Positions 20,963 to 24,560 of a stretch of 64,000 bases of DNA are shown piece after piece. The position numbers and the translations under genes were made by a program. Location: contig JAJZVM010000016.1 of assembly GCA_021845645.1 (NCBI GenBank), positions 1 through 64,000 of the forward strand, in the 5' to 3' direction. This DNA comes from Bacillota bacterium. GTDB lineage: Bacteria > Bacillota_E > JAJZYS01 > JAJYTV01. The notes below the pieces were generated by a model. That model had not been told where the DNA came from, did not search any database, and saw nothing but the letters and a program-made list of their open reading frames with translations. The first letter of the stretch is position 1. Each line of letters opens with the position of its first letter.

Positions 20963-22783
20963 GTGAAACAGTTCTACGGACTGCTCTCGAACGGGCAGAC
21001 TGCAGCTCTCGTCTCCTCCGACGCATCGATCGACTGGCTCGCCTTTCCCGACTTCGACAGCGACACGGTCTTCTGCCGCCTGCTGGATCCGCTCGCCGGC
21101 GGTTTCATGTCGCTGAGGCCGGAGTCCCACTTCCGCGCGGACCAGGCCTACCTGCCCGGCAGTCTCGTGCTCGAGACGCGCCTGCGCACGCCTTCGGGCG
21201 TCGCGACAGTCGACGACTACCTCGTCATCGGTCGCACCGAGCTCCGCCGCTTCGTGCGCAGCGAGGTGCCGCTCGTGCTGGATTGCCAGCCCCGCTTCGG
21301 CTACGGCCAGTCCCTCGGTGCCCTGCGGAACATGCAGGACGGACTTCTCTGGCTCAATCCCCACGGCAGCGAAGGACTCCTTCTCACCCTGCGCGGCCCA
21401 AGGCCCAGGTGCATCGGGCGCGAGCAGTGGCTCCTGCCGCCAGGGGAGCACGAGGTGGCGCTCCTCTACACGCCGGACTTCGCCAAGGAGCAGGGCGAGT
21501 TCGTCTCACCGCAAGGCGAGCCCGCGGAGCACCTCGACGATGCCCTGCGCTACTGGCGACAGGCCCCGATGCCGAGGACCGTGCCCGCGCTGCAGCATCT
21601 ATTTGAACGCTCGGTACTGACCATGCGCGCCCTGACGGTGCGCACCACAGGCGCGGTCCTCGCCGCACCTACCACGAGCCTGCCGGAGCAGATCGGCGGC
21701 GAGCGCAACTGGGACTATCGCTTCGTCTGGGTGCGCGACGCGTCCTACGCTGCGGAAGCGTTCCTGCTCTCGGGCGACGTGCTGGCGGCCCGCCGCCTGA
21801 TCGAGTTCCTCCTGAACTCCGTGCAGATGACGGGCAAGCCCTTTGTCAGTCCGTTCCTGCGCGGCGACGGCAGCTTCAGCCTCGGCGAGCGGGAGCTCGG
21901 CTGGCTCTCGGGCCACCGCCAGAGCCTGCCGGTGCGCGTAGGCAACGCGGCATCGGCCCAGCTGCAACTCGACATCGAAGGCGATCTCCTCTGGGCGCTC
22001 TGGCGCTACGTGCAGGACACCGGCGACTGGAACCTGCCCTGCGGCTACTGGTGGGCGATCGAGCGCATGGCCGACTGGACGGCGGACCATTGGCGCGAGG
22101 CTGACGCGAGTCTCTGGGAGTTCCGTGACACCCCGAGACAGTACACGCACTCTCTCGTGCTCTGCTGGGTGGCGCTCTTCGCGGCCGCAAGCCTGGCCAA
22201 GGCGCTCGGTCGCCGGGACAAGGCCCGGCACTGGCACGAGCAGGCCGCACGCGTGCGCACCCTGGTCGAGCAGGAGTGCTACCGGCCCGACCTCGGTGGC
22301 TTCACGCAGGGCGTCGGCATCGCGGAGGTGGATGCGGCGCTGCTCTGCCTGCCCCTCTACGGCTTTGTCTCGGCGGAGGATCCGGCCTGGCGCGCGACCC
22401 TCAGGCGCATCGAGCAGGATCTCGTGCGGGACGGCCTCGTCTACCGCTATGGCGGCGACAGCATGGGGCCTGCCCGCCACCCCTTCACCCTCGGCAGCAC
22501 CTGGCTCGCGAGGGTCTATCTGCGCTCCGGGCGCCAGGCCGAAGCCATGGCAACGCTCGAGCAGCTCGGGCAGGTGGCAACGCCGCTCGGCCTCTGGGGC
22601 GAGCACGTCGACCCCGTGGTCGGCGAGCAGCGCGGCAACTTCCCCCAGCTGTTCCCGCACGCCGGCTTCGTGGCGGCCGCATCCGAGCTCGCCCGCAGCG
22701 CGGCGGGCGCGGGCGCTGATCCTGCGCGCACCGGCACATGCCTGGGCGACCAGGAGGTCGAGTCGTCGGACAGGCCATTTTGA
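20963..22783 (+). CDS. Glycoside hydrolase family 15 protein (glucoamylase/trehalase-like)
   Basis: Cytoplasmic (no signal peptide) hydrolase of alpha-glucosides. 606 residues: N-terminal beta-sandwich (about 1-260) and (alpha/alpha)6 barrel. The barrel starts with RNWDYRFVWVRDASY; the catalytic acid is probably Glu386 in ASLWEFRD and the base Glu555 in GEQRGNFPQLFPHAGF. Many GH15 members of this form hydrolyse trehalose; the trehalose-6-phosphate synthase gene next to it supports that, but maltose-type substrates are possible. GTG start 20963 with GGGGGAGAG upstream. Confidence 0.88.
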   Translation: MKQFYGLLSNGQTAALVSSDASIDWLAFPDFDSDTVFCRLLDPLAGGFMSLRPESHFRADQAYLPGSLVLETRLRTPSGVATVDDYLVIGRTELRRFVRSEVPLVLDCQPRFGYGQSLGALRNMQDGLLWLNPHGSEGLLLTLRGPRPRCIGREQWLLPPGEHEVALLYTPDFAKEQGEFVSPQGEPAEHLDDALRYWRQAPMPRTVPALQHLFERSVLTMRALTVRTTGAVLAAPTTSLPEQIGGERNWDYRFVWVRDASYAAEAFLLSGDVLAARRLIEFLLNSVQMTGKPFVSPFLRGDGSFSLGERELGWLSGHRQSLPVRVGNAASAQLQLDIEGDLLWALWRYVQDTGDWNLPCGYWWAIERMADWTADHWREADASLWEFRDTPRQYTHSLVLCWVALFAAASLAKALGRRDKARHWHEQAARVRTLVEQECYRPDLGGFTQGVGIAEVDAALLCLPLYGFVSAEDPAWRATLRRIEQDLVRDGLVYRYGGDSMGPARHPFTLGSTWLARVYLRSGRQAEAMATLEQLGQVATPLGLWGEHVDPVVGEQRGNFPQLFPHAGFVAAASELARSAAGAGADPARTGTCLGDQEVESSDRPF

Positions 22784-22809
22784 CCGTCTCGGCTTGGCTC
22801 TGCTAACAT
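22780..22809 (+). promoter_or_regulatory. promoter driving the c-di-AMP riboswitch and otsA
   Basis: TTGACC (22780-22785), 18-bp spacer, TAACAT (22804-22809). It overlaps the end of the GH15 gene, so otsA has its own transcription unit. Expected start near 22817. Confidence 0.6.
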
Positions 22810-22834
22810 AGGTATCGTACGGGAAGACACTCTG

Positions 22835-22947
22835 TATGGCTGAATCTCCTGAGAGGGAGAGCGGGGGACCCACTTTTTGGGGCGAAGCGCCGCAAGGCGC
22901 AGGGTCGCACTTCGACCCTAGCCCGTCAGCTAACCTCGTAAGCCGTC
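22835..22947 (+). promoter_or_regulatory. c-di-AMP riboswitch (ydaO/yuaA class)
   Basis: The conserved core blocks of this class are all present in order: AGAGCGGGGGACCCA (22857-22872), TTTTTGGGGCGAA (22874-22886), and CCGTCAGCTAACCTCGTAAG (22923-22942), enclosing variable hairpins (GCGCC..GGCGC and AGGGTCG..CGACCCT). The closing P1 helix can pair GGCT (22838-22841) with AGCC (22941-22944). It is followed by a terminator hairpin before otsA, so binding of c-di-AMP is expected to stop transcription, as in other ydaO-type elements. Alignment is from memory of the consensus. Confidence 0.95.
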
Positions 22948-22952
22948 GAAGT

Positions 22953-23026
22953 GCAAATGGGTGCACCCGGCGCATTTGCGTCTTGAACGCGCAACAAGGA
23001 GCCGCCTCGGTCACCCGGGGCGGCTT
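22953..23026 (+). terminator. riboswitch expression platform with intrinsic terminator
   Basis: A 7-bp helix GCAAATG / CATTTGC (22953-22979) is followed by a 10-bp stem GCCGCCTCGG / CCGGGGCGGC with loop TCAC (23001-23024), then TTATGCACTTTTGC. The second hairpin is the likely terminator; the U-tract is interrupted. The otsA ribosome site GAAGGAGGGGG follows at about 23043. Confidence 0.75.
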
Positions 23027-23057
23027 ATGCACTTTTGCAAGCGAAGGAGGGGGTTTC

Positions 23058-24560
23058 GTGACCACCGAAACGCCGCGGCACGGCTCGCCAGGCAGGGCTC
23101 TCCTGTCGGATCTCTTCCCCGAGGCGCGCCTGATCATCGCTGCGAACCGCTCGCCGTTCCGCCGCAGCGTCGGTCTGCGCGGCGAGGAGCGGTGGGAGCG
23201 TCCGGCCGGCGGCGTGACCGCTGCGCTCGATCCCCTGCTCCGCCAGACTGGCGGCCTCTGGGTGGCCTCCGAGCCCGGTGAAGCCCAAGAACTCAAGGTG
23301 CCGCCCGAGGAGCCGAGCTACCACGTGTCCGTGCTGGGCATTCCCGAGGAGGTGTACAGGGGCTACTACACCGGCTACGCCAACTCTGGCCTGTGGCCGC
23401 TCTGCCACAATCTCGTGGAACGCGCCCACTTCCGCTCGGGTGATTGGGTCGCCTACCGCCAGGTCAACCGGCAGTTCGCGGCGCGCATCGCCGCCGAAGC
23501 GCGCCCGGAAGATCTCATCTGGGTGCACGACTACCAGCTTGCGCTTGTGCCCGGCTACCTGCGCCAGTTCGGCGTCACGGGCCCGATCGCGTTCTTCTGG
23601 CACATCCCCTGGCCTCCGACCGTCGTCCTGCGCCTGGTGCCGGAGCGCCGCATGCTCCTGCAAGGTATGCTCGAGGCGGACTGGATCGGCTTCCAGACCG
23701 ACGAGTCGGTCGACGCCTTCGCCGCGGCCGCCAGGCGCGAACTCGGGGTGCGCAGCCGACGCTCCGTTCAGGGCGTCACGCTCCAGTACCAGGGCCACCT
23801 GACGCACGTCGCGTCGGTGCCCATCTCGATCGACGTGCAGCAGGTCGAAGATCTGGCCGCGAGCGCGTATACAGAGCAGCTCCTGGAACATATGCGCAGG
23901 CGCTGGCAGCTCGGCCCTGACAAGGTGCTGCTGCTCGGCGTCGACCGCCTGGACTACACCAAGGGCATTCCCGAGCGGCTGGAGGGCTTCTCCCGCCTGC
24001 TCGCGCGCTACCCGTCGCTGCGGGGCAAGGCCCACTTCCTGCAGATCGCGGTGCCGACCCGCACCGAAATCTCGGATTACCGCCGCCTCGCCGTGTCCGT
24101 GCGCCGCAGGGCCGCGGCCATCAACCAGCGCTTTGGCGAGCCCGGCTGGCGGCCCGTGCGCCTTGTGGAGCACAATCTGCGCCTCGAGCGGCTCGTGGTG
24201 CTCTACCGGCTGGCGGACGTCGCTGTGGTCTCTTCCCTCTACGACGGCCTCAACCTCGTGGCGAAGGAGTACGTCGCGGCGCGCATCGACGGCGGCGGCA
24301 GCCTGTGCCTCAGCGAGACCGCCGGCGCCTACCACGAGCTGCGCGCCGCCTTCCCGCTCTCGCCGCTGAGCTCCGAGCGCATTGCGGAGAGCATGGCCAG
24401 AGCGATCTTCGCATCCTCCGACGAGCGCAGGGAGCGGATGCATGCGCTGAGAGAAGCCGTGCGGCGCAACACGGTCGACACGTGGCTCGGCCGGGTCCTC
24501 GCGGGGGTGCGCGATTCGCTCGACGTTCAGTTGTCAGGACTGAACGAGACCCCAGTGTAG
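23058..24560 (+). CDS. otsA: Trehalose-6-phosphate synthase (GT20)
   Basis: Glycosyltransferase that makes trehalose-6-phosphate from a nucleotide glucose and glucose-6-phosphate. 500 residues from GTG 23058, 5-6 nt after GAAGGAGGGGG. GT20 motifs are visible: AANRSPF near the start, WVHDYQLALVPGYLR, FFWHIPWPP, LLGVDRLDYTKGIPERL (nucleotide-sugar and phosphate binding), and SLYDGLNLVAKEY. No phosphatase domain is fused and no otsB lies nearby. Related GT20 enzymes make glucosylglycerol-phosphate, which I cannot rule out. Overlaps the convergent SpoIID-like gene by 34 bp. Confidence 0.92.
   Translation: MTTETPRHGSPGRALLSDLFPEARLIIAANRSPFRRSVGLRGEERWERPAGGVTAALDPLLRQTGGLWVASEPGEAQELKVPPEEPSYHVSVLGIPEEVYRGYYTGYANSGLWPLCHNLVERAHFRSGDWVAYRQVNRQFAARIAAEARPEDLIWVHDYQLALVPGYLRQFGVTGPIAFFWHIPWPPTVVLRLVPERRMLLQGMLEADWIGFQTDESVDAFAAAARRELGVRSRRSVQGVTLQYQGHLTHVASVPISIDVQQVEDLAASAYTEQLLEHMRRRWQLGPDKVLLLGVDRLDYTKGIPERLEGFSRLLARYPSLRGKAHFLQIAVPTRTEISDYRRLAVSVRRRAAAINQRFGEPGWRPVRLVEHNLRLERLVVLYRLADVAVVSSLYDGLNLVAKEYVAARIDGGGSLCLSETAGAYHELRAAFPLSPLSSERIAESMARAIFASSDERRERMHALREAVRRNTVDTWLGRVLAGVRDSLDVQLSGLNETPV

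Follow-up and report, generated by a model that had tools for sequence, protein, structure and literature searches.

Cyclic di-AMP (c-di-AMP) controls potassium and osmolyte import and cell wall hydrolases. Targets named for c-di-AMP riboswitches are potassium and amino acid transporters and cell wall and osmotic genes (PMC7266159). In Streptomyces, such a riboswitch turns off the cell wall hydrolase gene rpfA by premature transcription termination (PMC10117811), and in Bacillus thuringiensis a riboswitch of the same class belongs to the potassium uptake operon kdpFABC (PMC6488665). A close parallel to the case described below is the tandem Na+/c-di-AMP riboswitch of Dehalobacter ablA, through which c-di-AMP shuts off an osmolyte gene in vitro with read-through of under 5% (PMC9337991); riboswitch control of compatible-solute synthesis is, in principle, already known from that gene. 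Here we examine a riboswitch of this class upstream of otsA, the gene for trehalose-6-phosphate (T6P) synthase, in a 64,000-nucleotide stretch of Bacillota bacterium DNA (GenBank assembly GCA_021845645.1, contig JAJZVM010000016.1, positions 1 to 64,000), hereafter called the window. A sequence-only reading of the window had placed a ydaO-type riboswitch and a terminator hairpin between a predicted promoter and otsA and had proposed that high c-di-AMP shuts off T6P synthesis. Our analysis favors a similar arrangement, in which a promoter at the end of a trehalase gene would drive a leader with a c-di-AMP riboswitch and a GC-rich hairpin, followed by otsA, with expression turned off at high c-di-AMP by termination. 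We assign this reading as a whole a probability of about 0.78.

A covariance search, which the sequence-only reading had named as its own check, returned a full-length match to the c-di-AMP (ydaO) riboswitch family RF00379 in the otsA leader, at positions 22828 to 22960 (+ strand, as for all positions below unless stated). The match covers model positions 1 to 134 of 134 with 88.6 bits (gathering score, 38; E = 2.3e-19). Nothing else in the 64-kb window reached an Rfam gathering score, and a permissive scan (E up to 0.5) of the 14- to 34-kb interval found no Rfam match beyond it. In the RF00379 alignment, the conserved core blocks CGGGGGA, GGGG-GAA, and CCCGUCAGCUAACCUCG are all present, as is the P1 helix, whose 5' strand (22838 to 22841) pairs with 22941 to 22944. 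A 7-nucleotide (nt) hairpin loop, GCACTTC (22907 to 22913), is complementary to GAAGTGC directly after P1 (22948 to 22954), and these segments make up the two sides of a pseudoknot. The conserved blocks, P1, and the loop-to-tail complementarity are common to the window aptamer and the crystallized ydaO aptamer (PDB 4QLM), with identity at 86 of 99 aligned positions; the crystal sequence was taken from PMC5393176, which speaks of a pseudoknot in that RNA. A departure from the Rfam consensus is likewise shared with the crystal construct, the C-G variant GGGGCGAA/AGCCCG replacing U-A. The window differs from the crystallized representative in its target and in the U-poor tail of its downstream hairpin. 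Judged from its sequence, the element is a typical and intact representative of RF00379 whose target is unusual yet recurrent, and it would be expected to bind c-di-AMP.

The target gene is otsA (23058 to 24560), as had been read from the sequence, and a family scan assigns its 500-amino-acid product to GT20 (PF00982, 363 bits). The closest solved relatives of the protein are T6P synthases, to which it aligns at LNLVAKEY and at an intact donor-site motif, DRLDYTKGI. Translation is predicted to start at a GTG at 23058, preceded by AAGGAGGGGG, with a Shine-Dalgarno-like GGAGGGGG at 23046 to 23053; this start codon lies 97 nt past the end of the aptamer match. An ATG at 22836, which begins a longer open reading frame, was rejected as the otsA start; it lies inside the aptamer, and the longer frame reflects a chance absence of in-frame stop codons from that element. 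A promoter scan of the leader region found one site, against 0.1 expected in shuffles: a sigma-70-type promoter-like sequence, TTGACC-18-TAACAT with a TG before the -10 box (22780 to 22809), which overlaps the stop codon of the upstream GH15 trehalase gene (20963 to 22783). The extent that the sequence-only reading gave for the unit (22780 to 24560) is correct.

The arrangement is conserved. A search for related loci returned 71, five of them close (82 to 87% identity; L001 to L005, from metagenome-assembled genomes titled Bacillota or Clostridia bacterium), and a survey of otsA leaders in these relatives found the riboswitch in all four that have the leader on the contig; the contig of L005 ends inside otsA. 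We aligned nine leaders, those of the window, L001, L002, L003, and genomes G049 to G053, omitting L004, whose leader is nearly the same as that of L003. Over these nine, 96.0% of 252 cells are paired in a structure consisting of P1, the loop stem, the pseudoknot, and a 12-bp hairpin downstream of the aptamer, and sliding the pair partners lowers pairing to 34 to 51%. Changes on both sides occur in 8 of the 28 pairs, a number reached by 3 of 500 shuffles. The hairpin is paired in 97.2% of cells, with both-side changes in 3 of 12 pairs, and the pseudoknot in 96.8%, with both-side changes in 2 of 7 pairs; P1 is paired in 88.9% of cells, its outermost pair being open in four of the nine leaders. 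The promoter boxes are also retained, with TTTGACC and TA(A/G)CAT visible in all 10 close leaders (window, L001 to L004, and G049 to G053).

The hairpin is the candidate expression platform. It is strong and GC rich, occupies 22999 to 23026, and is a putative terminator. The sequence following it reads AUGCACUUUU, a weak and short U-tract in which the tail GCACTTTT (23029 to 23036) holds a run of four U residues. The looser scan accepts the hairpin with 4 T in 8 bases, and none of 60 mononucleotide shuffles, the number made for each leader, was as good. By the same scan, terminator-like hairpins are present in 20 of 25 riboswitch-trehalose leaders, the window included, with the one in L122 at a position other than the obvious hairpin, and leaders of the G249 type and those of G035 and G046 carry textbook-looking terminators. 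A possible antiterminating duplex between the segment after the aptamer and the hairpin is predicted at -30.0 kcal/mol, against -23.4 kcal/mol for the hairpin alone, and this hairpin-breaking duplex also beats the hairpin in L001 to L003. The pseudoknot strand GAAGTGC is complementary to the hairpin tail as well (23029 to 23035), a pairing that holds in 82.5% of cells over the nine leaders and is weaker than the pseudoknot. Energy folding of the whole leader was tried as a view of the switch and did not show one.

These elements suggest how the leader could work. From a promoter of its own, placed where the trehalase gene ends, otsA would be transcribed into an mRNA that begins with the riboswitch leader and continues through the GC-rich hairpin. 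At high c-di-AMP, when potassium and osmolytes are sufficient, the aptamer would close the P1 helix and the pseudoknot, the hairpin would then halt transcription, and T6P synthase would not be made; when c-di-AMP falls, otsA would be expressed. This logic resembles that of Dehalobacter ablA, in which the riboswitch turns off compatible-solute biosynthesis by termination (PMC9337991), with two differences: the ablA product is beta-lysine and that of the window would be trehalose, and no Na+ aptamer was found in the permissive scan of the 14- to 34-kb interval. The OFF logic would also be like that of Streptomyces rpfA, with otsA in place of a cell wall hydrolase gene (PMC10117811), and the potassium uptake genes headed by this class in B. 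thuringiensis kdpFABC (PMC6488665) have otsA as their counterpart in the window. The earlier proposal that high c-di-AMP shuts the gene off thus agrees with the logic of its class in ablA and rpfA, and we infer termination here from the behavior of the riboswitch class and from the clear terminators that some relatives have. We consider termination at the window leader likely and put direction and mechanism no more strongly because the U-tract is poor, no antiterminator is widely conserved, and the other riboswitch copies of the relatives seemingly lack terminators.

Pairing of this riboswitch with trehalose genes is not confined to the close relatives. In the class of G003, 134 of 154 genomes have an RF00379 match and 66 have a GT20 match, of which the 65 over the cut-off were searched again and the one below it was dropped; the second list of this repeat search went down to about 49 bits, so that the counts from it are lower bounds. 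In at least 13 of the 65, the riboswitch directly heads the GT20 gene, 158 to 281 nt upstream of the first GT20-matched base on the same strand and contig. In at least two more class genomes, G066 and G067, the gap is about 1.1 kb and a GalU-like gene lies within it, scoring 257 and 255 bits with a model whose cut-off is 327; in G066, an OtsB-like gene lies upstream of the riboswitch. In an even sample of the phylum (398 genomes), 66 genomes were over the GT20 cut-off, and the search took in the 56 of them that were new. RF00379 is present in 50 of these and lies 119 to 166 nt before GT20 in 9. Eight of these nine otsA operons seem from their sequence to continue into otsB and galU (only three proteins, of L116, were tested by family), and the ninth, in G465, has otsB downstream. 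In G455 (L125), the riboswitch heads treT, for the trehalose synthase TreT, followed by an otsA-otsB fusion. The sequence-only reading had called a link to trehalose synthesis less familiar; the pairing is real and, rather than being peculiar to this locus, recurs across the Bacillota.

The riboswitch is also missing from part of the OtsA family. In a tree of 54 OtsA rows, of which 26 carry the riboswitch and 28 lack it, its presence or absence must change eight times, and well-supported branches force at least seven of these changes. The 28 rows without it are a choice rather than a full set, 20 of them resting on a search with a stricter filter; the tree has some long branches and does not distinguish gain of the riboswitch from loss. 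When L107 to L115 were scanned permissively with Rfam, no RF00379 and one unrelated subthreshold match came up; L108 to L115 are the G003 paralogue, G036, G054, G047, G040, G131, G114, and G085, and L107 (G005) is uninformative, its otsA leader lying off the contig. The G003 row concerns a second GT20 gene of that genome (L108, C185), from the same clade and without the riboswitch, which is either a paralogue or a binning mixture. We consider it probable that c-di-AMP riboswitches were repeatedly recruited to, and lost from, trehalose operons of the Bacillota (otsA, otsA-otsB, otsA-otsB-galU, galU-otsA, and treT-otsAB), with trehalose as a direct RNA-controlled output. Recurrence in operons built so differently argues that the connection was selected and did not arise from one chance event, and the repeated pairing of the same riboswitch and gene in other Bacillota suggests that c-di-AMP controls trehalose production directly. 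If so, trehalose would join potassium uptake and cell wall hydrolases as a direct RNA-controlled output of the potassium and osmotic messenger, and endogenous compatible-solute production by this route would be added to the direct targets of c-di-AMP, a link that can be tested with one leader RNA. No statement of a link between c-di-AMP riboswitches and trehalose or otsA was found in the open literature searched, which excludes the gene lists of Block 2010 and Nelson 2013; passages of PMC8886135, PMC10117811, and PMC10243994 make no such link.

The relatives carry other copies of the riboswitch, which bear on the mechanism. The five close genomes (G001 to G005) have two or three RF00379 matches each, 14 in total. 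Apart from the otsA copies, these precede an MpsC-like gene and then kdpA in G001 to G004 and an NlpC/P60 gene in G001 to G005, and an additional G005 copy precedes a 3D and NlpC/P60 gene; for each type, a family scan bore out the assignment of one protein (for MpsC/kdp, the L086 proteins). Four relatives of the window thus have a riboswitch of this class before the kdp operon, as B. thuringiensis does (PMC6488665), and in all four loci (L086, L087, L088, and L089) the MpsC-like gene comes first. The kdp and NlpC/P60 targets are the classic c-di-AMP regulon, and a diadenylate cyclase domain is present in all 14 genomes tested.

Several observations weigh against the reading of the window leader as a c-di-AMP-responsive terminator ahead of trehalose synthesis, and some of them bear on how far the structural evidence reaches. 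The tested structure was drawn from the window, which favors that structure, and one of five covariation measures, further pair types, was no better than in shuffled alignments (262 of 500). The claim of a terminator hairpin stood as to the hairpin and less well as to termination: a strict terminator scan of 22700 to 23100 found none (0.4 expected by chance), and the leaders of L003, G084, G092, G066, and G067 lack a terminator even by loose criteria. Composition shuffles match the hairpin-breaking duplex in 7% of cases for the window, 4% for L001 to L003, and 24% for G053, and the duplex fails in the sister leaders G049 to G052 (51 to 94%). Among the 20 leaders in which an antiterminator was sought, only L118 reached a value as low as 4% beyond the window and L001 to L003, the other 15 being at 10 to 94%; no antiterminator is conserved beyond the nearest relatives of the window. 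Finally, in all 10 non-otsA copies (L086 to L095, from G001 to G005), the first possible start codon lies no more than 8 nt past the aptamer match, which leaves no room for a terminator. Those copies probably act on translation, so a nonterminator mechanism is probably also used in the lineage of the window.

The lack of a proper U-tract after the hairpin raises an alternative, in which the aptamer is functional but the platform chiefly controls translation or terminates transcription with the help of a factor (Rho or NusG). The negative strict scan, the failure of L003 in the loose one, and the short spacing of the non-otsA copies are all in line with this alternative, as is a CTCT near the 5' end of the leader that can pair with the GGAGG of the Shine-Dalgarno sequence; the minimum-energy fold joins the 5' end of the leader to its 3' end. 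Both motifs are invariant in the nine aligned leaders, yet invariance says nothing about pairing. The otsA leader is moreover built differently from the non-otsA copies, with 97 nt between aptamer and start codon and a GC-rich hairpin that is kept, with compensatory changes, in all nine leaders, and in other lineages clear hairpins with U-tracts precede otsA. We therefore regard the translational or factor-dependent alternative as possible but doubtful. A chance or decayed, functionless RNA element could account for the imperfect hairpin tail; given an E value of 2.3e-19, architecture and promoter boxes kept in close leaders, and the same arrangement in distant lineages, we give this explanation almost no credence. 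A further doubt concerns the product rather than the switch. PF02358, the family of the T6P phosphatase OtsB, is absent from all 10 clade genomes (G001 to G005 and G049 to G053), each of which has a GT20 gene, versus its presence in all four other genomes tested (G035, G046, G084, and G092; in G084, it adjoins the other GT20 gene, not the riboswitch-headed one). Since OtsB is missing in the clade, the riboswitch might be real and yet govern a GT20 product, T6P or some other, whose use differs from that of trehalose as an osmolyte, and the window OtsA scores 417.3 bits, below the NCBIfam equivalog cut-off of 564.85 (TIGR02400). Its best-scoring NCBIfam models are still T6P synthases, however, as are its best solved relatives with their shared donor-site motif; a trehalase-like gene adjoins otsA; the same riboswitch heads otsA-otsB operons elsewhere; and nonhomologous phosphatases are possible, as is incompleteness of the draft genomes. 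A different product is thus unlikely in our judgment. The clade would have either another T6P phosphatase or another use of T6P, and trehalose is the presumed final product of the window pathway.

The gene upstream of the riboswitch promoter fits a role in trehalose metabolism. The sequence-only reading had noted a GH15 hydrolase without the riboswitch as a possible breakdown arm, and the encoded protein is indeed trehalase-like, carrying GH15 (PF00723) and the trehalase N-terminal domain TREH_N (PF19291). Its best NCBIfam model is the archaeal-type trehalase TreH1 (592.7 bits, below the cut-off of 820), and a comparison with solved structures gave no matches. The permissive Rfam scan of the 14- to 34-kb interval found no riboswitch for this gene, and a role as the breakdown arm is plausible from its domains. 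A KamA-family gene (19549 to 20919) ends 43 nt before the trehalase gene, and its product scores 525.0 bits with the lysine 2,3-aminomutase model (cut-off, 525.4). Because lysine 2,3-aminomutase yields the precursor of the osmolyte N-acetyl-beta-lysine, the KamA, trehalase, and otsA neighborhood may be an osmolyte cluster. On the other side, a convergent SpoIID/LytB-domain gene (24527 to 26260, - strand) overlaps the 3' end of otsA with its own 3' end by 34 nt.

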